Shown: piece by piece, positions 15,526 to 55,068 of the stretch
How positions within the stretch are numbered: position 1 is the first letter of the stretch
Layout of the letters: each line of letters opens with the position of its first letter
Notes under the pieces: generated by a model
The model's database searches: none
Told to the model about the DNA's origin: nothing
What the model saw: only the letters and a program-made list of their open reading frames with translations
Translations under genes and position numbers: made by a program
Source of the DNA: Branchiostoma lanceolatum
Taxonomy: Eukaryota; Chordata; Leptocardii; Amphioxiformes; Branchiostomatidae
Reading direction: 5' to 3'
NCBI RefSeq assembly: GCF_035083965.1
Contig: NC_089725.1
Coordinates: 27,041,925 to 27,105,924, forward strand
Length of the DNA stretch: 64,000 nucleotides

Positions 15526-15564
15526 GCACTGCAAACTGCACACGTCATTGCCTACCTGCTGTTC

Positions 15565-16890: not shown

Positions 16891-16928
16891 GTGCTTTAGA
16901 ACAAGACGTGTCTGACTCGAGCTCCACC

Positions 16929-21641: not shown

Positions 21642-24600
21642 TCAGGTACTGAACTTATACCCCTCATAAATATCATCAAAGAGACTCTTGCAGGACAGTT
21701 TGGCCTTAAGCTTGCTGCAGAGCAGGAACCCACCAGCCATCTTCCTGTGCAGGGAGTAAGTCTGTTCAGGGGGAGGGGCGAGTCTGTCCCGCAACATCAC
21801 CGGCAGGAGCTGGTGGATACGCATGGTGGTGTCCTGGGTTCCGAAGTCGAAGGGTTCTGCACTCTGGAAAGGTTCCCCTAGGATCATGACAGCATCCACA
21901 TGGGCCTTCTCAAAGGCCTAGAAGAGAGAACAGAAGTATTTCGTGGTTGGTATAACAGGCCAGTGCTAAATAAGGCATACAGCTCTGCCGTAGGTATTCA
22001 GTGGTAGAGCGCCCTGGCTTGAGCATGGTTTTATGGTTGTGTAAGATAACGTATGACAAACATTAAGTTGATTGTGCAAGGTGCTTAGTTCTGGTAAAGA
22101 TAACATAAGAATGAGATTGTGCATTCAGTTTCAAGGCCATGGGTGGGAAAGGAGCAGATTCCTCTTGAAACTTGGGTATGAATGTTTTACATAGACAGAT
22201 AAAACTTGAAGAGACAACATTGGTCGTGGTATATTGAATACACATGTATAACACTTACCTTAGACTCATAGCCAGTCAGGAAACCCAGCTCCCTGGAGAA
22301 GTTGAGAACCTGCTCTCTGTCTCCCATTGCTGCACCTTGAATCACCTGGGGACACAAAAATACAGCTACAGTGCCCAAAATTGCCATGTTTCATCTGGAC
22401 CTCAATTACTACCAACATGCCGAAATTCCAACAAATCCATCAAAAGGATCTTGAGTTATAGCTGCGAACACAGACACAGGCAAAAACAGTACCCCTGTTG
22501 GATGTCACTGATCTCCTTCCAGGAGGTAATAAGGACATGCTGAAGTTGTGAGCCAAACACCATACTCAAACATGTCTATGGCACTGTAACCTTTGGGTTC
22601 AATGATTCTATAGTTTAGAGAGCACCTCTAGACACAGTTTCCAGCACTACTAATATTCATCCTGTTACTATTACATGCATCAATAAGTGTGGTGGGTTCC
22701 TTAATGCCTCAAGGTGTAGCCCAGACACAGATATCTCATACAGGTCCAAACCTGTAACTAAACCTCTGTACAATATCTATACATGTACCTAATCTGTAAT
22801 GCTACACATAGGAATACAACACCAACTAGTAGTGTACTTTCTTAGATACTGGCAGAGATGTTGAACCATGTAATTCTAAGAATAATCACCTTGATATACT
22901 TGTCAACAAATTGGTCCTCAAACTTCCTTGTAGCTCCAAAGTCAAGGAGATTGATCTGTAAGGCAATCATAACAAATATCAATTTCCTGATACAGCAAAA
23001 TATAACACAAAAAAGCACCACAGGAGCTCTGCAAATGTTTTGCTGGTTATGTCATTTTCAATTCAATGTCAATCAAATCTGAGTATGACTCTAGTCTACT
23101 AAAAAGTAGTTTTATATCCTTTACTACTATTTCATCACCTGTCAAGATTGATGAATTGACACCAGAACATTTCAAGATTCGGTGACAATTCTACAGTGAT
23201 CGACGAAATCTAATATTTGTAGCTTTTCTTGTCATACTTCGAAGGTGTAACCTAGCCTGACTAAATGACTTGTAGAAGTATTCCTCCTGGTCAGGTAACT
23301 GAAGGGGGAAGCTCCACAGAGGCCAGGACAGCGAGACTTTTGGCAACATATGACTCACCTTCCCTTGGACAGGGTTGTAGAAGAAGTTGGACCAGTTGGG
23401 GTCTGTCTGCATCAGCTTCCACTCAAACACCTCCATCATGCACAGTCTGATGATGGCCAGGCAGATCTGCAGGGCAGGGACACACACCACGTCAAAAATG
23501 TAATCTTGTTCCAGTTTTAGCTCACTGAAGAGCTTATCTTCCACTGCTTGCGACAGAGAAGACAGATGCTTTTTACAGTTACAGCATTTCAGACTTTCAT
23601 TGAAATGGGTAAATTTCCCTATCACTTTTTGGCAAGCACAGAGAACAGTGGACCGCAGATTAATCTGCCAACATTTCAATAGTCTTCCTGCTACCGGATA
23701 GCAGTGGGAAGTAGAAACAGTTACCATTGCCCTGAAGAAGGTAGCAGGGAACAAAAAAGAACTGTATTATCCACTCATTTCAATCATTCAGAAAATACTT
23801 TGTGTGGCAGTCTACAGATTCTGCTGCAAATTTTATGAGTTGGGTTTTAAACCCTACGCCAGGTTTTACAGAGCTTTCCTTCTCTGGATGATTGATTGAT
23901 TGTGTTGCAGTGAGGTGGAAGCAACCCCCAAGGTATTTGACGTGAGTTCCTTTACCTCATTCTTGGTGTCCTCATCTATCTCAGTGAGCTGGTCCAGTGT
24001 CATGCCGTCTATCAGCTCTGTGGTCAGTACTTGGGGGGTGGACAGTTCTGTGATCACTTCTGGTACATAGAAGATTGGGTCACCCTTCAGCAACTCCCTG
24101 AAATCAGTCAGACAATACTGTTATCCACACAGTTTTTTTCTTCATTCAGACCCTTAATACGTCCCTTCTGAAAGACAGGTGCAGCCTGAACCAAGTCTCC
24201 TAGTGACCAACTAATTGGAACCAGTAGCTGAACCATAAACCATTTTTTTAAGACTATGAGAGAGGGAAAACATCAAGTCCTCACAATCTCATATTTTCAA
24301 TTCCAGATCTGATATGCATATTATATCTATACAAATCTTTAACAACATTTTGGCAAATTGATGGCAAATGCCACAGATTAGGAACTAGTTCAGCCATACC
24401 CGAACGTTCTTGTCATCTCCGCCTCTCTGACATAGTCCACCTCCCAGGAAAGCTCCTTCCTTGCCACATCCACCAACTTGTCCACATACAGGCCTGGGGA
24501 GGGCAGGATAGTAAGTAATGTTACACCATTTTTAAGAAATAGAAAGCACAACAAGCAAACTAAAGGAGATAAGGAAGCTCATGATGAACAGGACACAGTG

Positions 24601-27600: not shown

Positions 27601-29153
27601 GCAGATGGCAAAATGCATCAATAAAACACACACAAAATATATACAATAAACAACTTCTTCTACCGACTCTGAACTGTACTTCCTGCCACTCTGGCAAGTC
27701 TGACCTTTGCAGTCATCTTCCAACTCACTTCATGCCAATACAGTATATACTGACTGTATTCAAATACCTATGGACACACACCAACAAAAACAGACACACC
27801 AAAAACATAGACTTCGTACATGGAATCAACAACAGAACTTACAGTTTGCCTTGCAACAGACTTGAAGAATTTTGGTGCCACTTTGGGCCTGATGGCAGAC
27901 AGCTTGGGTTTCTTCTCCTCCTTCTTCTGTTCACTTTTCTTTAGGACATCTGCTGTTACCGGAGGTGTAGTAGCATCATAGTGGAAGCCTCTTGTCTGCT
28001 GGGTGAAGTTGGCTGAGCCATTTTTCTGGCAAGGATGAAATTGATCAAACACTCATAATACTACAACATCTATGTCTTTGCTCCCTGGAATAATCAAATT
28101 TTTTGACACAATTCAGTAATACATGTAAAGGGTTTGGCAATCTGTGTGGGTCACAAAGAGTATACCAGATACAAAAGGCTGACTACTTTCTTTCCAGCAA
28201 AACATGGATTGTTCAACGGTTACAAGGTTATGACCTTGGTCAGGGGGGGCCTAAAGACGTGCGTATCATTTGCCATCATGTGATGCTAATACCACAAAAT
28301 AACATACTAGTAGAAAGATGAACTAAATAAAATAAAAAATACCTTAAGACTACAAAATATATCAACAATAGACAACTTAAATAGATTCTGAGGAAGGTTA
28401 TTGCAAAGAAAGCTTATCCCTATATAAGGTACTGTACCATCATTTTTGAAATAAAGACTCACATTGATGGTGGTACTATGAAAGTTGCCTGTTCCATTGG
28501 CAGTTCCAGCGTCTGTGGCTTGTTCTGTAGTTGGGGGTGCTGATGCTGTGTCAAACTCTGCTGCAGCTGCATTAATGTTGACATGTTCTCCCAGCCCTGA
28601 CGTCTCAGAGATGTTGTCCATTGTTCTCCTGATTGTAGACTGAAGAAAACATTGTTAGTTTATCATCATGTTTCTATTTAGTTAAAACTTAAAGTCTTCC
28701 AACACCTTCTGTTGTATAGGGATTAGGGATGGTTCACAGAAGTGTGAGAGTCCCATACTTTTTCTCATTTCATTTGATAAGACCGGGCCTTCCGAAATGC
28801 AAGGCGAACACTCTACTAGTACCCCTACTAGTAGTTCATTGCACTGTTTCCATACATATCATAATCTTCCAAAATTTTTCCACCCCTCCAAATGCAGTGA
28901 ACACAACTAATATGGCAGCATGGGCATCCCTTAAGTGTAAAGCTGGTTTACATGTTAAAACCCTTACCTTCACTCCCTCCTGCGTTGATCTCGCCATGCC
29001 CATCGCACCGTCCACCTGTCCTCGTGCCTCATGCAGCAGCTGCTGCAGACTGCAGGTGCTCCACACCTGGCGCACGTACACGCGCTGTGAGGAACCCAGC
29101 GCCTGCCCCACCTTTCCCAGGCCTTCCAGCACCATCATGATGTCCTTAGACAT
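21642..29153 (-). CDS. COQ8A: COQ8 (ADCK3/ADCK4 type) atypical kinase of coenzyme Q biosynthesis
   Basis: Fifteen coding exons in reading order: 29153-28968, 28639-28463, 28025-27843, 27462-27396, 27044-26988, 26775-26650, 26204-26119, 25582-25442, 25120-25039, 24493-24400, 24097-23956, 23466-23359, 22955-22890, 22345-22259 and 21917-21642. All phases join, giving 625 residues (human COQ8A about 647). UbiB-family hallmarks: KLGQ at 257-260, the alanine-rich AAAS loop at 318-321 replacing the glycine loop, VAMKIQ lysine near 339, QTDPNWSN (Asp 469, Asn 474) and DFG at 488-490. COQ8 acts in mitochondria on the inner-membrane CoQ synthesis complex, probably as an ATPase or unorthodox kinase. The N-terminal 200 residues are poorly conserved, as in the family. 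The gene probably predates the vertebrate COQ8A/COQ8B split. Confidence 0.95.
25828..25975 (-). mobile_element. tRNA-derived SINE-like repeat
   Basis: Read on the minus strand, an A-box-like TGGCTAGGGTAGTTG is followed by a B-box-like GGTTCCATTCC, then a body ending GGGTACCTGAC. The same body (CCTTTAC, AGGTGTAAA, GGGTACCTG) occurs at 31870-32012. It is in a COQ8 intron. Confidence 0.55.
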
Positions 29154-30235
29154 GGCGGGGCTTTCCTGATAGACAGAAGGGGGAGAAACAATGTGAGGTT
29201 TATCATGCTGTTCAGTACATAAATGATGCAACCTGCTTACAATACTATGCCAAACCCACACATATAAGACTCCAGGAATGCCTAACATTTACATAAAACC
29301 AAAGATTTTAAACCTCCTTGATAAAACAAAAGATATTTGGATTTGGACTTAAATGATTTAATCTGTATATCTGTTAATGGGTGCTATTTTTTGTCTGACC
29401 CTTACCACCTCCCTCATGAATGCAATGAAAAGCTTCTCATTAATAAATAAAATTTCAAACAAAATTAAATATATCATGACCAGCTCTGCTTGATCTATTT
29501 CTTAACTTCATCTATCCAATTGTACCCTCTTTTTTAACAACTCTGTGAACCTTTCTTTCTTGATTCCAAGATTCAACACTGATATAATGGCATTAATACA
29601 TATCTAGCTCTAGCTGGTTATGCAAGTTACAAAATCTTGTGTAACGTTAGTCCCTTTGCAGGCATGTCCTATATCAGATATGGTTGACCTTGTTTATATC
29701 AATATATGGGTAAGGTCATGAAAATTATATTAGGATGAAACGAAAAGTAGGTCAGCCAAGTTGTGTAAGCGACGAAATCTGTCTTGTATAACGAACCCAT
29801 GATAGACGGTGTTACGCTGTAAATACTGTAACAGTTACCTTATTTCGTTTCAAACGACGAAATTGGTTCTTGCGTAACACAGCCATTTGTTATTGTGTAA
29901 CACAGATATAAATTGGGTCATGCATGTAGTTAGTGCTTAGTAGGACGCCCTGGCACGAAGGATAGATGATCACAGTTCAACGCAAAAACACGAATCCTTA
30001 ACGATAATCTACTTCTGTGAAACATTACATTATTGCTGGAAGGACAGTTGATAGTTTCACACACCGCGAAAACATGTTTACGCAAGGGGGTTCAAGGAAA
30101 GGTTCAGACATAGGTAAACAACGAATCTAGCCTGCACCAAACAATTCACCAACGAACACATGTGCGCACCTTTCTGACTCAGCCTGTAGATCGGTGTCTT
30201 TATCAGCTTGTAGAGCGACTGTGTCCGAAGAAGAA
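28968..30235 (-). promoter_or_regulatory. 5' leader of COQ8: coding exon 1 leader and probable non-coding first exon
   Basis: A TTCTGTCTATCAG acceptor sets the coding exon start at 29165, 12 bp before the ATG. The only intact upstream donor candidate near a promoter is AAAG|GTGCGC around 30172, which would define a non-coding exon of about 30235-30173. The 29166-30170 stretch otherwise shows nothing recognisable. The 5' exon is inference. Confidence 0.4.
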
Positions 30236-30255
30236 TGCCAAACTGTTCCTTCTAC

Positions 30256-30276
30256 TTTTTATATAGCCAATGGTCC
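30256..30276 (-). promoter_or_regulatory. TATA box and CCAAT-type element for COQ8
   Basis: On the minus strand CCATTGGC is followed directly by TATATAAAAA (about 30265-30256). A start 25-30 bp downstream, near 30230, would lead into the candidate non-coding exon. Confidence 0.45.
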
Positions 30277-30872
30277 CGTGGAAATCAACGTGCTCCTTCC
30301 CAAATGGACACATGCAAATAACAGGACGATACCACTGACTAACTAAAATTAATAAAAACGAAATAAAGTACGAAATTCAACAAAAAGTATCAATTGTCAT
30401 CATAAAAAACATATTTTTATTACAATTTACAAAGTTAATTATCTGAAATATGTTGTAAGAAAAGGATAGTGAGTGAACAACTGAATAGGTAGCATGGATC
30501 AAGCCCCCCTGTGAAGAAAATGGTGTATTCTTGATATCCCAGCATTCTTCTATTTTGATTTTGCATACTGTAGTAATTCCAAGAACCGATAGAGGACGTC
30601 GTTATGACGGACTGAACAAAGTGTGCAAGGGGATTGCTCTCCCGATGCCAGACGTGGAAGTCAGACGGGAGTTGTGGGCGAAACAACTGGGAGTCCGAAT
30701 CAGTAATCAAACCGAACCTACTTATACTTTACCTGTATAAAAATTTCATTTTTCGTACATATGAATTTTGTTACTACAGTATATGGTTTATCGCACATTA
30801 CTATGCTATTCTTGTACTTTGCTTGTCCCGTATTTGTTTCAATGTACTTTTGTAATGCACTTTGTGTTGATG

Positions 30873-30956
30873 TAGCCTGGGTGCCATCCTATTTCTACCG
30901 GGGCTCCTACACTCGAGTGTAGGAGCCCCGGTTGAAATAGGATGGCACCCAGGCTA
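30873..30956. mobile_element. Near-perfect 84-bp foldback with 9-bp duplication (TAGCCTGG family)
   Basis: The left arm TAGCCTGGGTGCCATCCTAT and its complement enclose CGGGGCTCCTACACTCGAGT and its complement, so almost the whole element is stem. Perfect duplications GTGTTGATG lie at 30864-30872 and 30957-30965. The high arm identity implies a young insertion. Confidence 0.92.
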
Positions 30957-31869
30957 GTGTTGATGACGACTCGAACATAAGCTATGCGGCCTGCGTGTGT
31001 CTTGTCAGTAATGTTACGATAAAAGAATGATACTAAAACGAACAGGGGAATGTTGCTTTCGGACGATTTGATGTCAATGATGACAAAGAAGAGAACATTC
31101 GGTGTGATAGCAAATTGAAAGATTACCTTACGTGACTTCCCAGTTTGCTTAAGACTAAGTGTTTACAACTTCAATTCAAATCAGTCAGTTTCCTATTTGT
31201 TCCCGAAATTAAGTCTGTTGGGAAACTAGTCACCCAACCCTTTAAACCAACAGTGGGTATCCGACCGCATTATCATTTTGGTAAGCCTGGGAATAAATAC
31301 CCTGACAAAACGCACGCCCCTTTTTTATGGAGAAGACTATGATAAGGCGTGGCACCTTGGGTGGAGGGCCCTTCAATACATACTCGTGGTGCGTCAAACA
31401 GGTGGAGAAAGGCGAACATTCGTTACTTTTGAAAATAAGAACTACTAGTAATATTTTTCCATGGCCTTCTAAACATTTACTTACCTCTGCCCACCCCCGT
31501 AAACCGCTTCATGGCGTAACACGCCTTGTACTAAGGCCGAGTAGCCTCTACCAGTCCCTCTCTCCGACTCCCTTACTAGCATACTATTCGCTCTGTTTGG
31601 CCAGTTTCTACTATTTTTCCAGCGATCCGCGGAAGCCTGGTAGTGGCTAACTGAAGAGTACAAGCTGCATATCTGGATAGATTTATTTGATCCACTCAAC
31701 ACCTGGATGGTCCCCTGCTCTTTTCGATGAGTTTCACGGTGTGAGTGTAGTGGGTTCATGAACGTGCTCGAGGTGTGGCTCTCCTCAAACACGGGACCTC
31801 CATAACCTCCTTCGGGCATGAACTTGCAATAAAGTTATTATTAACGGCCGAGGGACGTCTCTAGCCGAA

Positions 31870-32012
31870 GCCAGGTACCCATTTACACCTCAGTCGAATG
31901 AGGAAATTGGCGGTAAAGTGCCTTTCCCAATGGGAACTGTCAGGGATTCAAACTCAGTACCTTGAGGTTCTGAGTTAGCAACCTTAAGACCACCGTGCCA
32001 CCTGCTATATTT
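31870..32012 (-). mobile_element. tRNA-derived SINE-like repeat
   Basis: Minus strand: GGTGGCACGGTGGTCTTAAG (A-box-like), then GAGTTTGAATCCC (B-box-like), then a body with GGGAAAGGCACTTTACCGCC and GAGGTGTAAATGGGTACCTG shared with 25828-25975. No internal coding. Confidence 0.65.
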
Positions 32013-33440
32013 GAGTAGATGGTTCTTAGATGACAGGTGAATGTGCGCGTAGGCACATTCTACAACAGCCTCATTACTCCGTATATGGGTACCTACTGGC
32101 TGTAATAATACAACCTGGTGAATTGTTATTCACACTACCGCACGTCTTGTAAGTACGTCTTGTGCACATGTGACATGTGACGTAAACTGTCTGAAATATG
32201 ATAATCTGATCCACAAGCTTTCCATGGTAACTGTCACGTCTGTGCCTTTCCGGACAGGGAAGCTTTGTTGACGTCACACCTCCTGTAGTGGCAAGGCCAG
32301 TATAAACTAATGACTTTCGCAACTCCTCCAGGTACGCGGCCTCGCCTGTACCGAACCGGATACGTTTTGCGCAACAAACGGGTGTAGCACTGCTGTTGTT
32401 TCCGTCCGAACCGCATCATTGCAACTGGTGGGGGCAGATTTATGCAGACGTCACTCGAGGTCTCACTTTCAACTTGAGACTAATTCCGCGTCACGCCAGT
32501 TTGGCTGGTAAAGATTGGGGAAAGTCGATTAAGTTTTTTAATAACGATCTTGCTTACTATTGAATGAATGGTTAAATCAACGAACGAATTACACACATTG
32601 TACGCTATTCACCGCTGAGTTATAACTTATGGGGGATCTAAGGTCTGTCCGAAAATAAAACTGATAGAATAGGTGATCTGAAGTTTTCAGTCCATGTTTT
32701 CACTTGGAAATTAATTTTGTTGGCAGAGCACAGTTTTCCCTGCCAATAGACTAGTGACTGAGCGCTTTTTCGTTCTCCTCCCAGATCACGATTTCCGAGT
32801 ACTGCCGGTATCAGTTATACGTAACGCTTTGTGTACCTTCTCGTCGTGAGTTTATATCGCTTACAACTTCAAGACGCATTTCCGGCAGTTTGGGAACTGG
32901 GGCAATGAGCCAGTCAGGCCTTGCCCAAACCGATCTTCCTGCGTTTCCCAGAAAACGTGACAGACCGTAAACATGTCCGCCGTTTTTGGGCGTCTTCTAG
33001 AATTGAGTAGCTCTTTTATCCTATTTGTGTATGGGAGCTTTGGCCTGTAAAAAAGAAGCCCAGATACACATGTAGGCCAAAATATTTTTAGTATGTTTAC
33101 GATGACAATAACAAGTTTCTTGCATAAGTCCATATCCATGGCCAACTCGGGCTAAATGCGTTAGTGAAAAGAATAAAAGAAAAGCCATGCTATGCTTCAT
33201 ATGCTTAAACTGCCTCATGTGTGATGTGTCGGACCCGTGTCTAAGTCGTGCTATGCTTTATCTAACATTATACCTATAACGTTACTTAGTATATAGTTTC
33301 CATTATATTGTAGTTGGATGCTGAGTTGCTGACATTACATATGCGAACATTTACTCCTTTGTTGAATGCGCATATCTTTGGTCTAGAAGTATGGCACTAA
33401 CGAACAAGAGCATTAAGTTTTATATTGATTTTACATGGAG

Positions 33441-40500: not shown

Positions 40501-43500
40501 GTTATTCTGATGCAACGTTGACTGAAGACCTGTCAAATATCTTGATGGATTTTTTCAAAACTACAAGACAACAACTCCGTGTGCCCAATGATGTTTCGAA
40601 AGTTAGGTACCATGCTGGTCAAAGTGATGATGGATAAAAACAGTTCACCAGCCTGGAGTATCACACATGTGCATGTTGCAGGGAATATGAAGACACAAGA
40701 AACTCAATGCCACCTGTTCTGTTTAAGATTTTGGCATTTAATCCCCAGGGGTAATCCTGTGGCATTCCGGCTCAGAAATTCTTCAGGAGTCATCATTCCC
40801 TGGGAGAGCGGAGAAGGTGGAGGTATTCCTGCAAATGTTTAATGTTCGTCCCACACGGCTGACCCTTAACATCTACAGGCTGACACAGGTCAGCTGGCCT
40901 GGGAACTCTCTGGGATAGAGACATCATGACTACTGCTCTGCTAGGGATGCTGGAAATCGTGAAATGTTGGCGATGGTTTTATGTTCACACTTTTTGGCAG
41001 TGAGGTCTCTGCCAGAAACTCATCACCCCTCGAACATGTCTTGCATTGTGGCACAACAGTTTTTTCCTATGCGAATTCTTGATTATCCCCTTTCCATCAA
41101 GCTTATACATGCACAGTTCCCAGACCAATAGGTATGTAGACCTCAAATAGGGTTGCCATTGGTCTTTTGGGTTGCCAACTTTTGCCTTCTGGGGGAAGGG
41201 AGAAGGGCGTTGCTGGTTACTAGTGTATGTAGATGTGTAGATGTACTGTGTACTTCTGGGAAGGGGTAGTAATTCTTGTCTGACAACTTGTGACACTTCT
41301 AGTCTTAGGTTGACCTGAAAACAGGATTGTCAGTTTTCAGAAGTTCTGGAGCAGACACTGTATTAAGGACAGTTTATGTAGTACAGTATAAGCATATATG
41401 TTCCATAGTAGATGATGATTATGATATACTTATAGATCCTAGTATTAGTGGGAAGAAAAACATTTTGTTCGGGGTAAACATTGATGACCCGTTTTTTTAT
41501 TTGTTCAATCAATTTTCTGTCCTATATTCGGAAACCGGTTCTTCAGCCCTCCCAGAAGTAGTGCTTCCTATATGTATTGTTACATACATACAAACTGTGC
41601 CTGGTTATTGAAGCAAATGTCAAGCAGCTCTTGACGCTCTTTTCACTGCACTACAGAAGAGATTGCTTTTCAACCTGACAACAGAAATGCTCGGTTGACT
41701 TTGTGACAGCTGGGTACCTCAAATGTAGGAGAGGCTAATTGACCCTTTGATCTGACAGCCATTGATGGTATAGAAATTGGTGCAGGTAGCAAGAAGCATC
41801 TATTATAATTACTTGTGGTTTTCTTCAGTAACCCTCAAGTAGCATGTCTCATTTGAAGTGGCTGTGTTTCAGTGATGTCTTTTATTTCAATAGATTGCAT
41901 TGTGGTCCCTCCGTCATACATGAAGCAAGATGGTACCCAAATGTTGGACAGGTATCTTTGTATTTTAAGTTATGAGGTACTTTTTATTCAGAAGTATTGA
42001 ACCTTTTCTCCACAAAAACTTCTGCTTTCCCCTTTCTTCAAGTTAACAAAGTAGTACTGACCTTAGCTAGAAAGGTAGGGCCAATTATCTTGCCAAAAAT
42101 AGCAGCTTTTAAGTAGTAAGATACTTTTTAAGGAAACTTTTGAACCTTTTCTCTGCAAAATATCTTTCCCTTCTCTACAAGTGAAAAGTGTTACCCTTAG
42201 ATAGAAAGGTAGGGCCAAAAATAACAACAACAAAAAGTTGTCAGATAATTTTTATTTAGAAGTTTTGAACATTTTCTCTACAAAAATGCCTCCCCTTTAT
42301 TCAAGTGAACAAAGTGTTGCCCTTAGCAAGGTACGGCCAATTATCCTGCCAAAAATAGCAGTCACTTTCCAACCTTAAGCTCCAGTGTGTACTTGTAATG
42401 ATACTTTATACAAAAGGAGCTGAAAACCTCCAACTTCAGGCTTAGACGACTTTACCTAGCCTTAGCAAAACCCACGTCTGAGTCCCAGAATCTATTTGCC
42501 CAGCTACCTTTCTATGATACTGGAACCCACAGGGGTAGATTACATTCTTGTCCTTCCAAAGTATACCCTTGACATTTAGACAGCAGACAGGAGGGCCTCT
42601 TACATACTCAGACTTTATGCTTGGTGCATTGCCAATATTAGGAGCACATGCCTCAGGTGTTGTGGGTGTCGCTAGTTATTTACTACCCTGTTCGACCAAT
42701 CCTCCAGAATATTTTGTCATAAAGCCTCGCTGCTACAGTTGATTATGGTGCAAAAAGCCAAGTCAACTTAAGTCGGCTTCAATTTTGCGCTCATGATGCA
42801 GACATTTTGTTGTAATGCCTAGCTGCTGCTGTTGATTATGGACCAGTTTATGATGCTAAAAGCCAAGTCCACTAAGTTGGCTTCAATTTTGCATTCATGA
42901 TGCAAACTTGCAGCCACACTCAGATCAGGTTGTTGGATGACCGCGCTGTGCAAAGTCGCTTGAAGCTTGGATGATTGGTGAAGATCACATCCGGCTCACT
43001 GAAAAAGAAAATGCATGGTAATACGATTTCTCCTGCTGCAGTTGTAGTGATCTTGCACATTCATAGCCTGGATGCCAGACCCCCAATCTCTAAAAGATCT
43101 ATCGTTGTGGTAGATAGATATTTTAGAAATTGGGGGTTTTGGCATTCATTCGCCTTCAGATTCTTGACCTTCGATCAGCAATGAGCTCCTGTCCTGACTT
43201 GGCTTACCAAGTCTAATCTTCAAGCAGATATATTAGTGGCAAGGCAGTATGAAAAGGGCCAACAGGTTGGCCCGTTTGATACTGCCTTGCCACCGATATA
43301 TCTGCATGGAGATTAACCAAGTCGACTTGAGTTAGTCTGATTTTTGCATCATGAACAGGGCCATACATATCGTGTACACCATGTGAATGATTGATGGTGT
43401 GATTGGTATACCCTTGTTTTGTTAGTGTCAGTGGAGGTGTGTGTGCGCTACCCTGTGGTGGTCTGTCGTTTTCTACTGTATCAAACAAACAGCCGAAGTA

Positions 43501-46500
43501 GTGATGTTGATGTCAGCTGATGTTTATTCTGGGACGGCAGGCTGTTTGTTATGGGACGACCCTCGAGCCGGTGACGTCAGAGAGGCTCTGACTGCTTTGT
43601 TCCCCACTCCGCGTTCTTATCAAGGTCATTACTGTGCCACCAAAATTGGCCAACATGAGCCTGAAGAAAGCTTTAGAAGCTAGAATGGACTTTCAGATTA
43701 CAACTGTACTTAGAAAGCATGTGAACATGCCTAAACCTTAGTTTAGACTGGTAGAATATATTTATATCTGAACTTTGTCACAAGTAACATGTACTGTAAA
43801 TCACTTTAATATAGCGGCAGGAAAATATAGCAGTTGGGGGAAAATGGAGTAGGTCATGGCACTTAATTTTAACAGCGGGAACAAACGTTACTGGCTTAAA
43901 TATTAGTGATCCAATACTAGCGATGATGAAATTTTAGCTGTTGACTAGTGACAGTTAAATCAGCTAAAATTAAGTTACAGTTAACAAATCAAGAATTACA
44001 GTACTTAGCAGTTACCCTGTCCCATAAGGGATACTTCATAGCGCAATTTGCCTGGTGGAAGGTATAAATGTCTCATTTACTGCTTGAAAAGCTACCTGTA
44101 AGTCAATGTCAATTTTCAATAGGTTTGAAAAGTTGTTGTAATGTAAGCTGAAGTCTTCCCTTGCCTAACAAAGGTTTCAACGCTACTCCTGATCTTTTGT
44201 TTTATGGGTGTGTTTATTGCTGCCACCTGGGCCAGGTGTTGCCCCAACAGAACCATGGTACCACTACATGTACATGTACACCCCGTATCACTAAACAATT
44301 AGTTTCCAAGCCCTCAAAAGATAGAATTACTGAAAAGTGGTCTTTTTCTTGTTTGACAGATAAATAGTAATTTAATATAAGAACAACAAAAAGCCATCTA
44401 TAACCTACCTACAACCATCGCTTTGTTATATTTGAGCTGTTGTGCATCATGTGTGATAGCATGATACAGATAGCATTCCTAACCAGAGGAATATATGCAG
44501 CCATCATGCTGGTCTAGTATTGTAATATCCACTGGTAATTTGAAGAAAAATTGTGGATGAAGTAGCAGTTACTTCATACAGTATGAAAGTTTCTCTTCCA
44601 ATATATAAGGTTTGTGGACAAATGGCTCACTAATAAACCTACTCGTGTTTGTTCATGGGTTTAGTTGTTTATTTGCTAAGTCCTTATCTACAACTTTCTT
44701 CATACACATCCTTTACAAACCATTAGAGAAACATGATCATTTAGCTACCATTATCGCATGCATTTAGGTTCAAGCCCACACCTATTTTCAACATAGATTG
44801 TCAGTTTGAAGTTTGGTAGCAAAGTTTATGTTGCTTTAACCACTTCAGGTCTCAGCACAGTGTTTGACGTGCAGCAATATAGACCACATTTAGTCAGGGA
44901 AGTTTGGACAGTTTGGAGTTTTTTTAAAGGGCATCGAGAGGTATCTAAACAGTCTAGAAATTGAAATGCTGCAGGAGGCAAGAAGGTCCCTTGACCGACC
45001 TACTCTGAATAGAACTCATTTTCAAGCAGTACTACTTACTACTAGTAGTACTACCGGTAGTACTATTCAACAGCTATGAAATAGCAGAGTAAAGCTTAGT
45101 GAAATGTGTGCAGTATGGTATATGCAGTGTTTGTGTTACGGAGTTTACATGTTTTGATGCAACTTTTTTGATAATCGGATACCTGAAGATGTAAAAATTC
45201 TACTAGATTTTGGACAAACACATAAAATATTTTGCAAAAAATAGCATATATATGTTTGGCCTTTTACTGATTATCAGGATATTTGGTTTATGCACAAACA
45301 TTGTGTTTCTTGTATATAAAGTTTCGTAACAACTAGTTTTCACATATTTATTAGCAGCATCATAACATATTGTTTATAATGCTGGTAGTTTGTAGACTCA
45401 AAATCCGTTTAGGGTGGAGGGTTGTAGTTGTTTGGTACACAAAACTTTCCAGGCTGAGATTTAACAGGCTTTGGTATTTTGTAGAACATGTCTTTCCTTG
45501 ACACAGGCAAGCTGCCATCTTCTAGGACGATGACGAGCGTGTTATAACATTAGTTGGCTCAATGTGGAAGGATACCATCTTGAGTTCTTCAAAAACCTTA
45601 TTGGTACTATTCAAGTGTGACAAATATCGTTGTGTCTGCAACTAAAAGCCTATAGATATTAAGAAAGAGCTTACATACACTTAGAAGTAAAAATTAGAAG
45701 GTATAGATATCATAGATTGGAAGTAGAGCTGATTCTGCTAGAACCTGGTAGAATTTGAAGTAGAGTTTCAGAAAAGGTGGAAAATGTCCTTGTTCGTCCT
45801 TGACTTGTGCCAATATACCGTTTGACAGGTAAGGCAGCCGCTATTTCTGTAACAGGGTTGTTATGGCGATGGAACACTGACGTTTATGCCGTCACACAAA
45901 CGTCAGTGTTCGCTGTATCTGTTGTTTAGAACACAGTGTCAATAGATAACGTACTAAACATAGGCTAATGCCAAGTTTAGTGTTGATAAAAGCCCCCCCT
46001 AGACTCACGCTTCCAGGATGTTTTGACATCTGTCTTTGACAGTTATCTATACTGCAATGACGTAAATGCCCCCCAAAAATAAGCCATAATCCCTGGCCTT
46101 CGACGACCCTGATTGATAAATAAGTCAGAAATAGTGTGTATTAGGTCTGTATGTGATGATAAAAACTACAAGGAGGTGTAAAAGGACCTTGCAACAGTGA
46201 AATGTGTGTAAATCAATGCTCGATGACTATCTCAACAAGACCAGTGTGTTCGCCAAGGTGGCAAGTCACATTCTGTCACTAGATCCTACATGTGAAATAG
46301 TAGCACTGACTGTTGAGATTACAGCTTCAACATTGAACTTGAAGCATGCATGTTAGTTAGGAGGTAAAGTCAATATACAGCACATGACAACACAGTCGGC
46401 GCAGTCAGTGTAATATAAGTTACCAGCTGCTGCCATGCGGTGTGCCTACTAAGCTGGTATGTTATGCTGAATGGCAGTTATACTGGCTATACAGAATATA

Positions 46501-49500
46501 GATACAAATGATATAGATGTAGTGCAACAAGATTGAGTGTTGAAGGATTTAAAGCATCTTGCCTATTCACCTCCAGATAAAAATGCAGAAAATTCAGTAT
46601 TCTTCAATTTACTAAGTATTGCAATCGTAGGTAATTCTTCAGTTTGATGCCCTGGTCTTTGGCGTAAAATTAGAAATGCGTTTTTGCAGTTAAATAATTT
46701 TTTGTTGGCACGATGTACCTGACCTGATGAAAATTGATTCATTGAAAATTTTCTGGATGCAGTTGGCATCAGACCTAGAGGTGCAAAATCGTACTTACGT
46801 GTGTACATCTCTGGACTATTACATTATTTAATTTATCATCATTACCTATTGGTCTGTTGTCTTCTTTTCCTGGTAAATTGAGGTATTTTCCCACCAGATC
46901 CCATCTGCATGTTTCTTGAATAACATTAGAATTATGCATAATTATCATGTGTTTGCTTCTTTCAAATTGCTTGCTTCTTCCAAGGAGGTTTAATCAGGAT
47001 AAACCTCCTTGCTTCTTCTAGTGTCCAAACTGTAGATTGAGAACTCACAGTTGAATGTGTCAGCTATACCCAGGGTTGTCTGCTAGGAAATACATGATCC
47101 TCTTCTACCTGTACCAGGATGTTGTGTGATTAGTATTGTGCTGTTCACAAGTCACTGTGATTGTGAATGTGTGATAATGTGGGATAAGATATATGTAGGG
47201 TGTATGATTCACCCCATCCAGGGGAGCTTGCTATATATAGAACCGAGGAAATACACAGGGTCAGCCGACGTGTAGGAATGTCACTTGGAAGTGAACACTT
47301 CACATATTGGAGAGGGATGTCAGACCACTTAAATCTATTCTTGTTTTATATGAGTCAAGTTACCAATAATGTGCCCACTCACTTTTCGATTTCCCTTCAA
47401 TTGTAACTGTCTCATGTTCAGTGATGAGTAATGGGGTAGGTTAGCTGGCAGGTCATGTTCATAAGTCACCCCAGTACCTCCCCTTGGTCACGTTCTCCAC
47501 CCTCCAAGGATTTCCTGCCTGGTTTCTATGGGTCTGGTTACGTACTTCCTTGGCTGCTGTGACATCAGTGGTACAGGCAGTTCCTCTGAAGTCTGAACAC
47601 ATGCCCCTGTGATGGTGACCGTTGGTTCAGATCCTGTCGGTGTAGCCAGAAGATTTCCAGTAAAGCCGTGGAAGCAAAGAATGCTCCCAATGGTTCAAAA
47701 GATGTTCACTGCCTTGCAGTGTAGATATCAGGACAAGCAGGTAGAGATTCTTGCCGTTTCTGCTGTTACTTGTGTACGCTAGATTTTCCAGTATTGTGTT
47801 TGACTTTGCTTAGCAACTGGGTTTACTCTTGGCTTTGTGTGGAGATGTTTGGAGATGGATGGTGAAAGTAGGGGTGCCGCACGACTCAATGTTTTTCTCT
47901 CCCCGGAACCGCTTTAATTTAGCCAAATTTCAGTCTTTTAATCAGAGATTCATCAGACAAAGAACACTCTTATATTGGTACCAATAGTTGAAGATGGTTC
48001 TTATCGGAATATCTGCAAAATCTTCAAAATGCCTATGTACAGGTACTATGCGAGCAACAGCCCATTGAAAGTCGGTCACTTTCAACTTGGTTTCACGAAA
48101 CCAGGGTGTATCATTGTGAAATGTGTGAAACATTTGTGCTTAATCTGCTTGTAATTCTAATTTTTACCACTTTTATTTGTTCCCCCACAGTCGCTACAAC
48201 AATGGAGAAAGATTCGCAACATGGTCCACTGGTCGCCGTTCCTCCAGTGCTTCAAGAAGAAGTACCCCTGGGTGCAGCTGGCAGGACATGCAGGTGAGAA
48301 GGAGTGAACTTTATTGCTCCACAATCGTACATGGCACAATGTAAGGCCACACTATCCAACAATTAGAACTAGAAAATATTATCAACAACAGTGTATGATA
48401 CGTTGATGAAGGTTAGACGTCCAGGTAATAAGATGCGCCCAAAATAGTAAGTTACTCAAGCAGCTGGATAAAATTTTGAAACAGTGTATGAGTTACAATA
48501 TAGTCATGTATGTATGATTTGGTCTCACTTAAATTTGGATAGCCTGGATGCCAGATCCCCAATTTCTTTAACATCTTACGTGTGGTTTTTTCGAGATTGG
48601 GGGTCTGGCGTCCAGGCTAACTTTTGGAATGAAGTACAAAGAAATTGACCTATGTAGGCGGATAAAGTTGAGATATGGTCACCTCAGCTGTAAATTCTCT
48701 CAGATAAGAATGACTGAGCAAGACCTTGTGCCAGTCTTGTGGTAGAAAACATGCCACTCAACTGCTGATAGTCACTACCATTTCGAGCATCTTAAAGACT
48801 TTTGAACATGTGGAGATAAAAATGTTGTGTGGAGGCATTAGAACCTCATGATTTTGTGCGTGTTTGTAAAAAAAGGAGGTAGGCATTCAGACTGAGGCAA
48901 AGTGTAACTCTTTTCGATAGCTAGTAGTGCAATGAAGCCTTACCCTGTCTTGCATTTTCAGCCAAGCACACCAGGTAACCCTTATCTTCTCGATAAGCAT
49001 GTTGGGTTCTTTTACACCTAGAGGTTTAGATAAGGGGGTCTGAAAATGTATTCAGCGCAAGATGCAATGTTTTTAAGTAACAGGTTGTTGAGACAAAATG
49101 GTACTGATAATCATGATGTTTCTTACAGGCAACTTCAAGGCTGGAGAGGGAGGAACCATCTTGAAGAAACACTGCAATCGAGAGGCCAAGTGTCTGAAGA
49201 AGCTGATGGGAGACCTCCTGCGATCTTACGTCCCAGAATACAAGGGAGATGTGGAGAGGGAGGGGGAAAGTATCCTTTCCAGATGCAACTGGGTTGCTCC
49301 ATTCAGTGTTCTGTATTATGTTATACTGCTGGGATTGCTGTAATCAAATTTTTGTTATATGAAAAGTATGAAGTCTTGATGTTTTGATAACTAAGATATT
49401 TGTTTTGATAACTGAGAAAGTGATAGAAAATAGCTCTTTGATGGTAGATACATATGACGAATGTTGAATTGACCTTGCTGCCTAGCCACATTTGTTGTTC

Positions 49501-52500
49501 TATGACATGTGTGACCAAGGACATACAAGCTAAACATATCAGAACAAGGAAGACATTCTTGCCTTCAATGTGCATTCCAACTGCAACAGAAGGTAATCTG
49601 GATAGTGCTTTTGGAACATTGGAACTGCCCTGTCTCTCATTTAAATGTACAAATTGCTGTGGCTAGTCTTGACGATTTGATATTCATGGGTGTTTTTATG
49701 ACGAAGTCGTCTTAAAAAGATAGTTTGGCACCTTATATGCGGATTTGTCGATACTTGATTTGTCGGAAGGCCTTGGTAGCTGGATTCACCAGTGAACCGG
49801 TCATTCTCTGAACTGAATTGTTACGATCTCGGCTGCCTTTTACATTTTGCATGTCTCCTCAGGCAACAGCTGTTTTTTAGGGCTTTTTAGGCCAAAACCC
49901 ATAAGTAATGTTGTGGTGCATTTTTCGTGAAACATAATACTAGTAGGCGTTGTGGGAAAATGAAGAAAGTATCGATGGTGCCCGTAATTTGGCTCATATC
50001 AAATCGTAAAGGCTGGCCACAGCAATTTGTACATTTTAATGAGAACAACTCTAAAATGAGTGAAGGAGCAAGACTTAGATCTATCTGCAAAAAGTTTAGA
50101 TTGCACTTCTTTCACTGTTGCTAGTGTTAGCTTCTTGCAAAATGTGCTGTTTTTGAATGTTTGAAAATGTCCTTTAATTGAAAAAGAAAATTTTTATTTC
50201 TGCATCTTACACCAGATAAACTTGGTAGGATTGGACACAAGTGTTGTACTCAAGTTGTAGGATGACTGGATATGGAGTTAATGATCACCCAAGTCTTGAA
50301 ATTTTTCTTGCAATTTCTTTTTATGAGCCTTTATGATACACAATTCATCACATGGAATGTTATGAAATGAGCTTTTATCATTATGAGGGTTCCGAATAAC
50401 ACCATCAGTCTTATCTTATCGCATTGATCTTGTCGTGAGTTCCTTGATTCACATGCTCAGAATTCATGGAGATGGAAGACCTTCTGGGAGACTTTGACAC
50501 ACCTGCTGTCATGGACTGTAAGATGGGAGTCAGGTATGCCTACTAGTTTACTGTGCTGTCTCTACGATGTGTTACCCTGAATGGCGGTTATACCGGCTAT
50601 ATAGATACAGATACTGTACTGTCTGTACTGTTCCCTTTGTAGCCAAAATATGAACAAATCGATACATAATCTACCTGTGTGACCTCAACCATGGCCCTGC
50701 TAATAATTGTAAACATACATCTACTGCATATTCTCCAATGAATGGATCCTTGCTGTGTAGATCTTCTTTATATATCTACTGTACAACTATTGTTCACACC
50801 CAGATATGATATGAATCGCAAGATGACAGGACAGGATGAATTAGAAGATGAAAGGATTGCGCTCACTCAATATACTGTTGATTAATTTCAGCAGTATGGC
50901 TTCATGATTATGACAAGGCCTTATTTAATTTGTTATTTCAGACCCTTGTAGTGCCTAGTGGTACATAGGGTAGCAAGTTTCCTTTCTGTTTTAGTAGCAG
51001 GGTATATGAGGGGTTGCTAGCCTTCCCGTTTGACATGCTTGGGGCACCTCCGCTAACATTGTACTCAAATTTTATTTTACACCCCTTTCGCAAGACGCAT
51101 GCAGCCCCAAGATGTCCTGACGCAGGGGTCTCCCAGTTACCAACTAATTGGAACCAGTAGATCAACTGTAAGGCTGCTACCAGTTTAGCTATAGGAACAT
51201 CCCCCCTTATTTTATTAACCATACTTAATATTTTCCCTTTGCCGTCAGGACGTACCTAGAAGATGAACTAGTCAAGGCCAGAAGCAACCCCAAGCTGAGA
51301 AAGGACATGTACCAGAAGATGATCGAGATCGACCCCACGGAACCGACGAAGGAGGAGAACGCAGCCAAGGCCGTCACCAAACCTCGCTACATGGTGTGGA
51401 GGGAGAGCATCAGCTCCACGTCTACACAGGGCTTCAGGATAGAAGGCATCAAGGTTAGCAACAATGCCTCATAATAGTAGAGCCTTGACTACGAAAGCGA
51501 GTTGTAGCAAACTGCATTACCCTATCAGCTATTGAAAAAGCATTATGCTTTACCTCAAGCATTACGCTTTGAGTTTGATTGAAGATAACCTGGGATCCAG
51601 TCTGAATCGTCGTTAGGCCGGTGTCACCGGGTGGTAAAGATAGCTCGGCGGGGAAAGCGCCTGATTCCCTGTAGAGTGCCCGGCCTAATGACGATTTAGA
51701 CTGGATTCCAGGTTAGACTGAAGAGAAAAGGAAGATGAACTGTTAATGTGGTCATTCAGGAATCTGGATTTTTGTACAGAATTATTTTAAAAGTCACAAC
51801 TGGTTAAGAACACATTGGGTCACCTATGGCTAAGATTTAGATTTGAGAATGACTTTACTCCCCGGGCAATCTGAGATGCAAGTACATGTATTTGCTTACC
51901 ATGACTGGACAATATTATCTAGATGCCTTGTCCAATAAAAAAAGGAAGATCAAGAGCACTGCCCGATGTAGCACTTAAGATTTTACGCGTCTCATGATTG
52001 TTGTTGTCATCATTCACAGAAGTCAGATGGTCAGTCGAGCAGAGATTACAAGATGACCAAAACAAAAGACCAAGTGGCAGAGGCCTTCAAGTTTTTCACC
52101 GATGGTAACCAGTCATTACAGGTAACATGACTTGACTTTGTCTTGATTCAAAAATAGCTATGATCCACCTTTCCACTAGAGCGCTGAGCAATTGAACATT
52201 TGACAGGTCCCTCAATGAATTAGATACATAAAGACATAAAGAAGGAATCTTTTTACGTTTTGTTGTCTTTTGAAATCATACTTTTACATCGTGCAAGCAG
52301 ATGATTTCAGACATGATATTCATCTCACCTGTGTAAGATTAAGCTGGGCATTCTGACATGTTAGAGTAGTTCTAGATGTTTTTAGATGTAAGGCAGTTGG
52401 CTCATCAGGGCTCGAAATACGTAGTGGGTGCATGTGCACCTGTGTGCACCCAAAATTGGAACTGTGCGCCTAATTTTTGACTGTGGGTGCACAGTAGGCT

Positions 52501-55068
52501 ATTGGGTAAAGGTACAATTGTACACAAGTTTTCAAAAAATACTCTTAAAATGTAAGTATCAGAAAAAGCATTAAAACCTTTTGTTGTATTCTATTTGATG
52601 TATTACTATTACTCGTTTGAAATATTGAAGTTTAAGCTATAGAATTACAGATTGAGGCAGTAGTGTTAAACTTTTAAATTATGATATTATGTTAAGCTGA
52701 CATTCAATTCATTTTATGTGGTGCACCCAAAATTCTTTCTGTGCACCTAATTCTTTTTAGTTGGGTGCACCAGTGCACCTATTTCTAAAAATGAATTTCG
52801 AGCCCTGCTCATGCTGGGAGAATTTTAATGTCCAAGCAGATGTTTGGCCAAACAATGAGTGGGTGGACAAAAATTTAAAGCCGGAGACAGCCCTGGATCA
52901 GACTGTTATGATTTTGCCCCCAAAGATCTGATTGGAGATCAGGAGAATTTCCTTCCATTTAAGTATTTTACGATCATGGAAAGTAACTTATTTTCATAGG
53001 TTAGATGTGACAGGTCATTCAGTGTGATATAACCAGCTGCTGTCGCAATGTGTGCCTGCAAAGCTGGCCTGTTACGCCAAATGGCAGTTATGCTGACTAT
53101 ATAGATACAGATACAGATTACTTGGACAAACAAACACTTCCCCATTAAGCTAATATCTGCACAGGTCCTTGAAAACAAAATAGAAACAAACACATAAACA
53201 TATTGACCAGGAATTAAAGGATATTGCCACAATTTGCCCACAAAGGAGGATAAAGTCTCTTTGTATCATAAACAGGGCAATCTATTGTTGGGTGGATCAT
53301 TTGTGCATACAACAAATCCTTTTCCGTCATCTGATAGTTTGTCTTATGACAAAAATGATAAATTCAAAAATGGATAAGATCTGCATGTCTTCTGCATTTG
53401 AGTTGCAAAGCTCATGTTTAGCCCATTGTTTATAGGGAGAAAAACATTTTATGGAGAAACTATAGTCTTCCGTCTTTTTGTGTGTGGTATATTTACTGAT
53501 TATTGTATTGAGAATATTGCACCAACTTGGAAGATATGTGTAGTCTAATGTGGTCACCCCCATATTTGTACCTCACAGAAAAAGTATGTCCAGAAGTTGA
53601 TGGCACTGAGAGCAACGCTGGAGAATTCTACATTCTTCCAAACACATGAGGTAAGAGTTTGCTGCACCTTCCCCTTTTAGTTGGGATTCTAAACATACAA
53701 ACAGAACATACGAGGTGATCGTTTTTGCAGTTGCAATGCAAATTGTACTTTGATACCACAGTTTTGTCAAGAGATGATTTGTAGCTGACAAGCTGCTATT
53801 GACACAACTTTATGCACAACCTTTTATTGCTGTTATGGGCTGACATGGGTCATAGCTTTGTGCGATGCCTGGGGCTGTAACACTAACATGTTACATTTAA
53901 ATATGTGAGAGTTGTGGCAGGTAGTGTTGTATAAGATCCTTCCTATCAAAATTGAGGACAACGACAAGATTGTAACAAGAAAGAAAGAAAGTGAACTGTT
54001 GAGCCGTCCATTCAGGTGGTAAATAATAAGATGATTATCAAGAGGAGTGACAAAAAGTGAACAAACAAAGAATGTCGTAAAACTGGGCAGAGCCTCAAAG
54101 TCCACCACTACCTGGTGATAAAATATTAAATCAATACTGCAGTTTTGTAGGGCTTTGAAATAACAGGCATAAAAACAAACCTTTTGGACCCAGGTGGAAG
54201 GTATTGAAACTGGGGAATATTTTACTTCGGTGAAGGTCGGGGCTAGTTGAGATATACCACTACCTTTGCGGCACTTACATCTCACCTACTGGTCGGACCA
54301 AACTTTGAACATCAAAATGTTTATTTGGATTGGGAAATTTGAAGAAAAAATTGTATGCAGTTTGATAAACCAAACAATGATTTGCTGTTAGATAACAAGG
54401 TTGTTTATTCACAACCAAGACATTTCAGTGACCGTCTGTCACCTTCCTCAGGGCAGTTGTTATCTAGTCGTTATCCAACCTGACAAAAGAATTTTAAAAT
54501 ACTGCATGTCAAACACGGTGGAAGAAGAAATACATTTTATTTCAAATTGCCCCTTATACGATCACGAAAGAAAGGAGCCGTTTAATTCCATCCTAATTTC
54601 TCCATGTTTACAGACAAAAATGGACAAACCCACACATTACAGATCATTCGTCTTCCACTGTCTTGGAAAAAGAAGTAGAACCCAATTAAGTTAGAATTTA
54701 GTGTCAGTATTTAGACACATGCTATGTTGTTACCCATTGTCTGTCTGTCCTTCCGTGTTACATGTACTTGCAATTAGCCTACGGGCAAGAACTTAAAACT
54801 TTCATTATTCACGAATGATTTGCTGTTGTTTCAGATAATCGGCAGCTCGCTGTTGTTTGTCCACGACAAGGAAGGGAGCCACGTGGGGGTGTCTCTGATA
54901 GATTTTGGGAAGACGATGTCGTTACCCGAGGGACAGATGCTGGACCACCGGCTCCCGTGGAAGGAGGGGAACAGGGAGGACGGGTACCTGTACGGACTGG
55001 ACAACATGATAGCTGTGTTCAACACTCTGGCAGAATGTGACGATCAAGATCTCACAGAAGAGTTCTAG
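34594..55068 (+). CDS. ITPKB: Inositol-1,4,5-trisphosphate 3-kinase (ITPKA/B/C family)
   Basis: Eight coding exons: 34594-35526, 48191-48293, 49129-49269, 50461-50533, 51249-51453, 52020-52121, 53579-53650 and 54835-55068 (TAG), 620 residues, all phases consistent. Exon 1 (residues 1-311) is a Ser/Asp/Asn-rich, probably disordered region. Residues from 312 ([20 protein letters not shown]) match the calmodulin-binding segment preceding the vertebrate catalytic domain. Catalytic marks: PAVMDCKMG (PxxxDxKxG, 407-415), [22 protein letters not shown] (546-551) and IDFGKT (Asp 566). It phosphorylates IP3 to IP4, shaping calcium signals. Start choice: ATG 34594 has A at -3 and G at +4; an in-frame ATG at 34531 would add 21 residues. 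The symbol is by family only; this gene should precede the A/B/C split. Intron 1 could hide alternative first exons. Confidence 0.95.
38717..38730 (+). repeat. Poly-C tract
   Basis: About 14 consecutive C residues within intron 1 of the IP3 kinase gene. Its length may be unreliable in assembly. Confidence 0.8.
40965..41030 (+). repeat. Repeat shared with 57958-58015
   Basis: CGATGGTTTTATGTTCACAC, TTTTTGGCAGTGAGGTCTC and AACTCATCA match TGATGGTTTTATGGTCACAT, TTTTTGGCAGTTAGCTCTC and AACTCATCA. A dispersed repeat of unknown family. Confidence 0.5.
41975..42362 (+). repeat. Three degenerate tandem copies of a 125-143 bp unit
   Basis: Each copy holds GAACCTTTTCTC (41999, 42142) or GAACATTTTCTC (42267), a CCCCTTT-type stretch, AGTGAACAAAGTGTT-like text and AAGGTAGGGCCAATTAT or a close relative. 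In intron 1 of the IP3 kinase gene. Confidence 0.7.
42720..42905 (+). repeat. Two tandem copies of a roughly 95-bp unit
   Basis: Both copies contain GCTGCTACAGTTGATTATGG or its close variant, AAAGCCAAGTC, TCGGCTTCAATTTTGC and CATGATGCA. A third, broken copy flanks the MITE at 43214 (CAAGTCGACTTGAGTTAGTC, TTTTTGCATCATGAA). Confidence 0.65.
43064..43147. mobile_element. TAGCCTGG-family foldback, right end eroded
   Basis: TAGCCTGGATGCCAGACCCC pairs with GGGGTTTTGGCATTCA across a loop containing ATCTATCGTTG. It is closely related to the element at 48540. The terminal CCAGGCTA is missing at the right. Confidence 0.65.
43214..43315. mobile_element. 102-bp foldback with 8-bp duplication (TAATCTCCAAG subfamily)
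   Basis: TAATCTTCAAGCAGATATAT and its complement ATATATCTGCATGGAGATTA enclose a stem of GGCAAGGCAGTAT and GGGCCAAC arms. Perfect ACCAAGTC duplications lie at 43206-43213 and 43316-43323. It is inserted in a copy of the local tandem repeat. Confidence 0.87.
43792..44003. mobile_element. MITE-like element with short terminal repeats
   Basis: TACTGTAAATCACTTTAAT at the left faces AAGAATTACAGTA at the right, giving a terminal repeat of about 10 bp. Internal TTAGCTG/CAGCTAAAATT arms also pair. No secure target duplication. Confidence 0.45.
46408..46515 (+). mobile_element. 3'-end fragment of the LINE family at 18983
   Basis: CCAGCTGCTGCCATGCGGTG, AAGCTGGTATGTTATGC and GGCAGTTATACTGGCTATA match the 3' UTR of the antisense LINE, ending near an AGATACA tail. 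Extreme 5' truncation leaves only about 100 bp. Confidence 0.75.
46981..47010. mobile_element. 30-bp CAAGGAGG miniature hairpin with 8-bp duplication
   Basis: CAAGGAGGTTTA pairs with TAAACCTCCTT. Exact direct repeats GCTTCTTC flank it at 46973-46980 and 47011-47018. In intron 1 of the IP3 kinase gene. Confidence 0.65.
48540..48619. mobile_element. 80-bp TAGCCTGG-family foldback with 9-bp duplication
   Basis: TAGCCTGGATGCCAGATCCC faces GGGGGTCTGGCGTCCAGGCTA. The duplications AAATTTGGA (48531-48539) and ACTTTTGGA (48620-48628) agree at 7 of 9 positions. It lies in intron 2 of the IP3 kinase gene. Confidence 0.85.
50570..50626 (+). mobile_element. Short 3'-end fragment of the same LINE family
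   Basis: TGTTACCCTGAATGGCGGTT followed by ATACCGGCTATATAGATACAG is the extreme 3' end of the LINE at 18983. Confidence 0.7.
51586..51715. mobile_element. 130-bp TAnCCTGG-family foldback with 9-bp duplication
   Basis: TAACCTGGGATCCAGTCTGA faces TAGACTGGATTCCAGGTTA, with further pairing of TCGTTAGGCCGG and CCGGCCTAATGA. The duplications GATTGAAGA (51577-51585) and GACTGAAGA (51716-51724) differ at one base. In intron 5 of the IP3 kinase gene. Confidence 0.87.
52406..52807. mobile_element. hAT-like MITE with CAGGGCTCGAAAT ends
   Basis: The 13-bp terminal repeat is perfect at both ends and has the CAGGG start typical of hAT elements. Flanking CTCAT repeats (52401-52405, 52808-52812) suggest a 5-bp duplication, shorter than the usual 8. 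GTGCACC-rich sub-terminal blocks pair near both ends. 402 bp, non-coding, in intron 6 of the IP3 kinase gene. Confidence 0.8.
52999..53118 (+). mobile_element. 3'-end fragment of the same LINE family
   Basis: CAGTGTGATATAACCAGCTG, TGTGTGCCTGCAAAGCTGG and GGCAGTTATGCTGACTATA, then (ATACAG)2, match the LINE 3' UTR at 18983-19090. Confidence 0.8.

Follow-up and report, generated by a model that had tools for sequence, protein, structure and literature searches.

A divergent COQ8 and IP3 3-kinase gene pair in Branchiostoma lanceolatum, a probable unduplicated counterpart of two human gene pairs

The window analyzed here is a stretch of 64,000 nucleotides from the lancelet Branchiostoma lanceolatum. 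It contains two intact genes in a head-to-head arrangement, COQ8 on the minus strand and an IP3 3-kinase on the plus strand, with their ATGs pointing away from each other. COQ8 is an atypical kinase/ATPase of the UbiB type, which supports mitochondrial coenzyme Q synthesis; IP3 3-kinase converts IP3 to IP4 and acts in calcium signalling. The two proteins need no common pathway. The vertebrate copies COQ8A, COQ8B and ITPKC matter in human disease. An earlier note on this DNA had described a divergent pair with starts 4.4-5.4 kb apart. The spliced gene models bear this out and place the spacing at the upper end of that range, with 5,440 bp from ATG to ATG. The features are listed in Table 1; positions 21642 and 55068 are the two coding ends, i.e. 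the COQ8 stop and the coding end of the IP3 3-kinase.

Table 1. Features of the COQ8/IP3 3-kinase locus, in window coordinates.
Feature	Position	Strand	Description
COQ8 (COQ8A/COQ8B orthologue) coding span	21642-29153	-	15 coding exons, 630 aa; ATG at 29153, stop ends at 21642
COQ8 first coding exon	28968-29153	-	ATG at 29153
Divergent intergenic region	29154-34593		5,440 bp; richer in CpG than either gene body from about 29.65 kb
Near-perfect palindrome in the gap	30873-30956		42-nt arms, 98% complementary, no spacer
IP3 3-kinase coding span	34594-55068	+	8 coding exons, 620 aa
IP3 3-kinase first coding exon	34594-35526	+	311 codons, ahead of the catalytic domain
IP3 3-kinase intron 1, as modelled	35527-48190	+	12.7 kb; CpG observed/expected 0.36 (depleted); may hold a further small exon
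IP3 3-kinase exons 2-8	48191-55068	+	segment aligning with ITPKA/B before the kinase domain, then catalytic domain (PF03770)

All 14 introns of the COQ8 model are bounded by GT-AG and the coding sequence is free of internal stops. The best match among solved structures was COQ8B (9tvk; 655 bits, residues 178-626). The score was 632 bits with a reconstructed tetrapod COQ8A (9tvn) and 554 bits with COQ8A 4ped, which is a shorter construct. All three minus frames of the COQ8 span matched Pfam ABC1 (PF03109), and two of these matches passed the curated cut-off; the last exon scanned alone gave no Pfam match. K80-x-G82-Q83, A141-A142-A143-S144 and D311-F312-G313, which correspond to the KxGQ motif, the alanine-rich loop and the DFG motif, do not vary between the predicted protein and the three COQ8A/B rows aligned with it. 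The identity is 63-65% to the COQ8A/B rows as compared with 28-35% to four bacterial UbiB/ABC1 rows. Judged from its predicted protein, the gene belongs to the COQ8/UbiB family of atypical kinases and resembles animal COQ8 more closely than bacterial UbiB/ABC1. A sequence like a splice acceptor, pyrimidine-rich and with CAG at its end, lies 12 bases upstream of the COQ8 ATG. An untranslated 5' exon is therefore probably located further upstream, so that the value of 5,440 bp is a spacing of ATGs and not of transcription starts.

The IP3 3-kinase model has seven introns, all of them GT-AG. Its best structure match was ITPKB (2aqx, 435 bits); the scores were 387 bits with ITPKA (9qgk) and 325 bits with ITPKC (2a98, a shorter construct). 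The match to IPMK reached 29.1 bits and that to IP6K was lower. Residues D97-C98-K99-M100-G101, S233-S234-L235-L236-F237 and I251-D252-F253 are invariant in four rows; presumably these are the DxKxG, SSLLF and IDF motifs of the IPK domain. The segment that aligns with ITPKA/B before the kinase domain is, we assume, the putative calmodulin-binding part. By its sequence the protein is a member of the ITPK family and not an IPMK or IP6K. At the E-values obtained, chance is no serious alternative for the identity of either predicted gene. A study on animal IP3 3-kinases (PMC11000326) describes a six-intron structure shared by 23 of the 31 genes analyzed there, whereas the window gene has seven coding introns.

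A six-frame Pfam scan of the gap between the two genes found no domain at the curated cut-off. The sole match in the gap, below that cut-off, was to PKAT_KLD with an E-value of 0.041. As a positive control, both flanking genes were recovered by a like scan, through ABC1 for COQ8 and IPK (PF03770) for the kinase. No tRNA and no Rfam family was detected. On the human map PSEN2 would be the candidate for an intervening gene, and the six-frame scan shows no sign of one; a gene made of small exons with weak conservation could be missed, like the last COQ8 exon when scanned alone.

The CpG content differs markedly between the gap and the two genes. The observed/expected ratio is 0.25 in the COQ8 part (21642-29400), 0.89 in the gap (29401-34593) and 0.39 in the kinase from 35901 onward. 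In Fisher tests the contrast is significant for the gap versus COQ8 (p = 5e-32) and for the gap versus the kinase body (p = 1e-20). The rise starts near 29.65 kb, about 500 bp past the COQ8 ATG, and the drop comes after kinase exon 1. The resulting CpG-rich run, 29401-35900, takes in kinase exon 1 as well as the gap and has CpG-depleted gene bodies on either side. Runs were defined as 500-bp windows with a ratio of at least 0.65, a threshold chosen by us, over at least 1.5 kb. Three such runs occur in the window, and the other two lie in a block of ependymin-related genes near its left end. CpG depletion is mosaic across the window as a whole. According to a study on amphioxus, 5mC occurs nearly exclusively in gene bodies (PMC6292497). 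The simplest reading is therefore an unmethylated stretch that contains both 5' ends and is flanked by methylated gene bodies. The pattern suggests an unmethylated 5' domain of a kind that is ordinary for invertebrates.

The earlier note had also stated that human COQ8B is located beside ITPKC on 19q13 and that COQ8A is near ITPKB on 1q42. Published gene lists agree with this. Two papers give a 19q13 series with LTBP4, NUMBL, ADCK4 (COQ8B), ITPKC, C19orf54 (in one of the two lists) and SNRPA (PMC2359992, PMC3728203). The series appears to run in map order. For one signal on 1q42, at chr1:226.8 Mb, PMC13248444 names ADCK3 (COQ8A), ITPKB, C1orf95, PARP1 and PSEN2. Another paper places ADCK3 at chr1:227127938-227175246 and ITPKB at 1q42.12 (PMC11182099). 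The human regions and the window carry the same two gene families, adjoining on 19q13 or at one locus on 1q42. The flanks of the window, i.e. an ependymin cluster, a reverse-transcriptase frame and a WD40_2 gene, are without evident counterpart in these human lists. On the human map COQ8B and ITPKC are oriented head to head, PSEN2 separates COQ8A from ITPKB so that these two are not immediate neighbours, and ITPKA is not known to have a COQ8 partner. The window differs from 1q42 in this respect; it contains a single pair in 64 kb, with a spacing of 5.4 kb and no recognizable domain between the genes, while human 1q42 has PSEN2 in between.

The gap could have a regulatory function that explains the retention of the arrangement. 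A single 5' domain in the gap would then control both genes, and COQ8 and IP3 kinase would be co-regulated in a manner inherited by the vertebrate pairs. The continuous CpG-rich stretch over the gap and kinase exon 1 favors such a domain. In amphioxus, besides the near confinement of 5mC to gene bodies, 25% of neighbouring genes are in bidirectional promoters, which are tied to housekeeping functions (PMC6292497). A slight hint comes from the human SNP rs2607420 in enhancer-marked intronic DNA, which is associated with the expression of ITPKC, ADCK4 and C19orf54 together; the same paper reports linkage disequilibrium, through which the SNP may act (PMC6265621). However, genomes of this type leave DNA between genes unmethylated by default. 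Shared control is therefore not needed to explain the CpG content, and two further long CpG-rich runs are present in the ependymin block. The separation of COQ8A and ITPKB on the human map also argues that the arrangement is not essential.

The spacing is a further point against this regulatory reading. Classic bidirectional promoters have starts within about 1 kb, and a distance of 5,440 bp between the ATGs is long by this measure; COQ8 probably has a further 5' exon upstream of its ATG. The amphioxus paper used 1 kb for its class of 'bidirectional' lncRNAs and counts 372 putatively ancestral bidirectional promoters (PMC6292497). The window pair resembles these ancestral pairs in having divergent neighbours and CpG-depleted gene bodies, but its spacing, measured between ATGs, is wider. 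Neither 'Itpk' nor 'Adck' occurs in the main text of that paper; the pair may be among the 372. In sum the CpG pattern fits shared regulation of COQ8 and IP3 kinase without demonstrating it, and we regard control of both genes by one inherited domain as unlikely. Slightly less likely still is a stronger version, in which a shared 5' regulatory domain from the chordate ancestor ties the synthesis of coenzyme Q to calcium signalling by IP3/IP4 and is the constraint that keeps COQ8B and ITPKC adjacent in vertebrates.

The phylogenetic position of both genes was analyzed with trees of eight rows each, in which all animal comparison rows (three COQ8, four ITPK) are from vertebrates. The PDB records name molecules; the species labels given to these rows are human, mouse, rat and plant. 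The COQ8 tree contains the window protein, the three COQ8 proteins, one of them a reconstructed ancestor, and four bacterial outgroups. Chains 5i35 (a near-copy of 4ped) and 5yjz (distant, ABC1-like) were kept out. The bacterial UbiB rows L003 and 7cy2 form long branches, and the tree was rebuilt with the two nearest outgroups.

With four outgroups the window COQ8 is placed outside COQ8A+COQ8B with a support of 88/84. A tree constrained to group it with COQ8A is worse by 5.35 log units (p-AU 0.054), and one that groups it with COQ8B by 5.31 (p-AU 0.062). With two outgroups the same position has a support of 85/78 under the mixture model (p-AU 0.063 with A, 0.098 with B) and of 99/98 under LG (p-AU 0.009 with A, 0.021 with B). 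Under the mixture model the alternatives thus survive the 0.05 level, with p-AU between 0.054 and 0.098. COQ8A and COQ8B are 72-75% identical to each other, compared with the 63-65% of the window protein to either. This analysis gives moderate support to a COQ8 branch outside COQ8A+COQ8B.

The IP3 kinase tree contains the window gene, the four vertebrate ITPK rows and three distant outgroups, namely IPMK, plant IPK2 and Entamoeba IP6K, which are too distant for firm rooting. Chains 8pp8, 1w2f and 1w2c (ITPKA, as is 9qgk) were kept out. In a reduced tree IPMK served as sole outgroup, and rat ITPKA, plant IPK2 and Entamoeba IP6K were left out.

The free tree with three outgroups joins the window gene and ITPKB with a support of 80/90. 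A tree in which ITPKA, ITPKB and ITPKC are held together is 0.74 log units better than this free tree (p-AU 0.62). Grouping of the window kinase with ITPKC is rejected (p-AU 0.031); the p-AU for grouping with ITPKA is 0.143. In the reduced tree the support for window gene plus ITPKB falls to 45/0. With IPMK as outgroup the two arrangements tie under the mixture model, and under LG the A+B+C tree is weakly preferred (43/34). A position of the kinase outside A+B+C and one beside ITPKB therefore appear to fit about equally well. The earlier note would take an outgroup position of both lancelet genes to the vertebrate paralogues as support for its claim; COQ8 behaves in this way (88/84), while for the kinase the free tree and the slightly better A+B+C tree point in different directions.

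These data bear on whether the kinase is orthologous to ITPKB only, or is a second copy confined to its lineage, in which case the pair would not be ancestral to both human pairs. Besides the grouping in the free tree, the highest identity of the window kinase is with ITPKB (65% over 286 columns), within a range of 58-65% to ITPKA/B/C; A, B and C are 63-70% identical among themselves. But ITPKB is also the nearest row to ITPKA (68-70%, apart from the two rows of A itself) and to ITPKC (66%), and its branch, at 0.14, is the shortest of the paralogues; the stem of A measures 0.37 and the branch of ITPKC 0.44. A slowly changing ITPKB predicts its nearness to the window gene, and this nearness is thus weak evidence for orthology. 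Furthermore, uniting A+B+C gives a tree that at least equals the free one, and the neighbouring COQ8 does not side with COQ8A.

Copy numbers in the literature add to this picture. PMC11000326 reports one or two IP3K copies in five invertebrates and usually three in eight vertebrates; the split into IP3K-A/B/C is dated after the separation from invertebrates and credited to whole-genome duplication. The same paper lists two IP3Ks for Branchiostoma floridae. This speaks for a second copy and weakens the earlier notion of 'one unduplicated pair', since the kinase of the pair may not be the sole copy. Taking both sides together, we consider it improbable that the kinase is specific to ITPKB or a secondary copy.

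Among these readings the best explanation is that the window pair is the pre-duplication version of the divergent COQ8/IP3 3-kinase pair, carried by an invertebrate, to which we assign a probability of about 0.8. This explanation is only half shown, with moderate support for COQ8 as an outgroup to COQ8A and COQ8B; we infer that the IP3 kinase is an outgroup to A/B/C and that whole-genome duplication produced the human pairs. The pair is most likely the unduplicated counterpart of both human pairs, and the neighbourhood is probably older than the vertebrate genome duplications. These duplications would have copied the COQ8/IP3 kinase neighbourhood. COQ8B and ITPKC would have been kept side by side, COQ8A and ITPKB would have stayed linked but become separated, and the COQ8 copy next to ITPKA would have been lost. 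Simple microsynteny in a genome that rearranges slowly probably preserved the order, perhaps with the help of regulatory DNA in the 5' domain. An independent origin of the adjacency in the lancelet lineage and in vertebrates is very improbable indeed. In the published lists both families occur as direct or near neighbours in two human regions, and convergence on the same divergent neighbour is hardly to be expected.

The pair is a small, expected example of conserved gene order and no new kind of thing. As a clean candidate ancestral pair it can serve as a modest test case for the way in which genome duplication breaks up neighbourhoods. Should the linkage and the trees prove consistent in further invertebrates, the known conserved microsyntenies would gain one pair, with no new mechanism by itself. 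Among the open-licence papers searched we found no account of COQ8 and ITPK as a gene pair or of its evolution, and no paper that treats COQ8A and COQ8B together with gene duplication in vertebrates; the pair may have been listed earlier in microsynteny surveys or supplements. Two peptide patterns per family found no relative of COQ8 or IP3 kinase in viral contigs.

The remaining parts of the window contain several other elements. A tandem cluster of ependymin-related genes (PF00811) occupies positions 1-18700 on the plus strand with five similar exons. Those near 107-298, 4510-4703 and 10482-10673 are 84-88% alike and those near 14540-14711 and 18509-18681 are 78% alike. Ependymin-related clusters are described for Branchiostoma belcheri, but a sea star and a sponge have them too (PMC6280359). 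The cluster, the mosaic CpG depletion and the roughly equal distance of both proteins from their vertebrate paralogues are in keeping with a lancelet source, though none of them is specific proof of one. Beyond the 3' end of COQ8, at 19087-20145 on the minus strand, an open frame of 352 codons carries a reverse transcriptase domain (PF00078) and is a retroelement remnant. At the right edge an open frame on the minus strand (61773-62390) has a match to WD40_2 (PF19056) and no PDB relative at an E-value of 1 or better; it probably represents one large exon belonging to another gene. Between the kinase and this frame an isolated CpG-rich patch at 59001-60250 reaches an observed/expected ratio of up to 1.4 and includes a 15-bp tandem repeat at 59268-59305.

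The palindrome in the gap is probably a small transposable-element remnant. Its end sequence recurs at 10703 and 43064 with 2-3 mismatches, and a second near-perfect palindrome is located at 43214-43315. Both palindromes are probably small foldback transposable elements. A dispersed repeat of about 100 bp occurs at 18996-19112, 46402-46509 and 53002-53118, with copies that are 78-82% alike.
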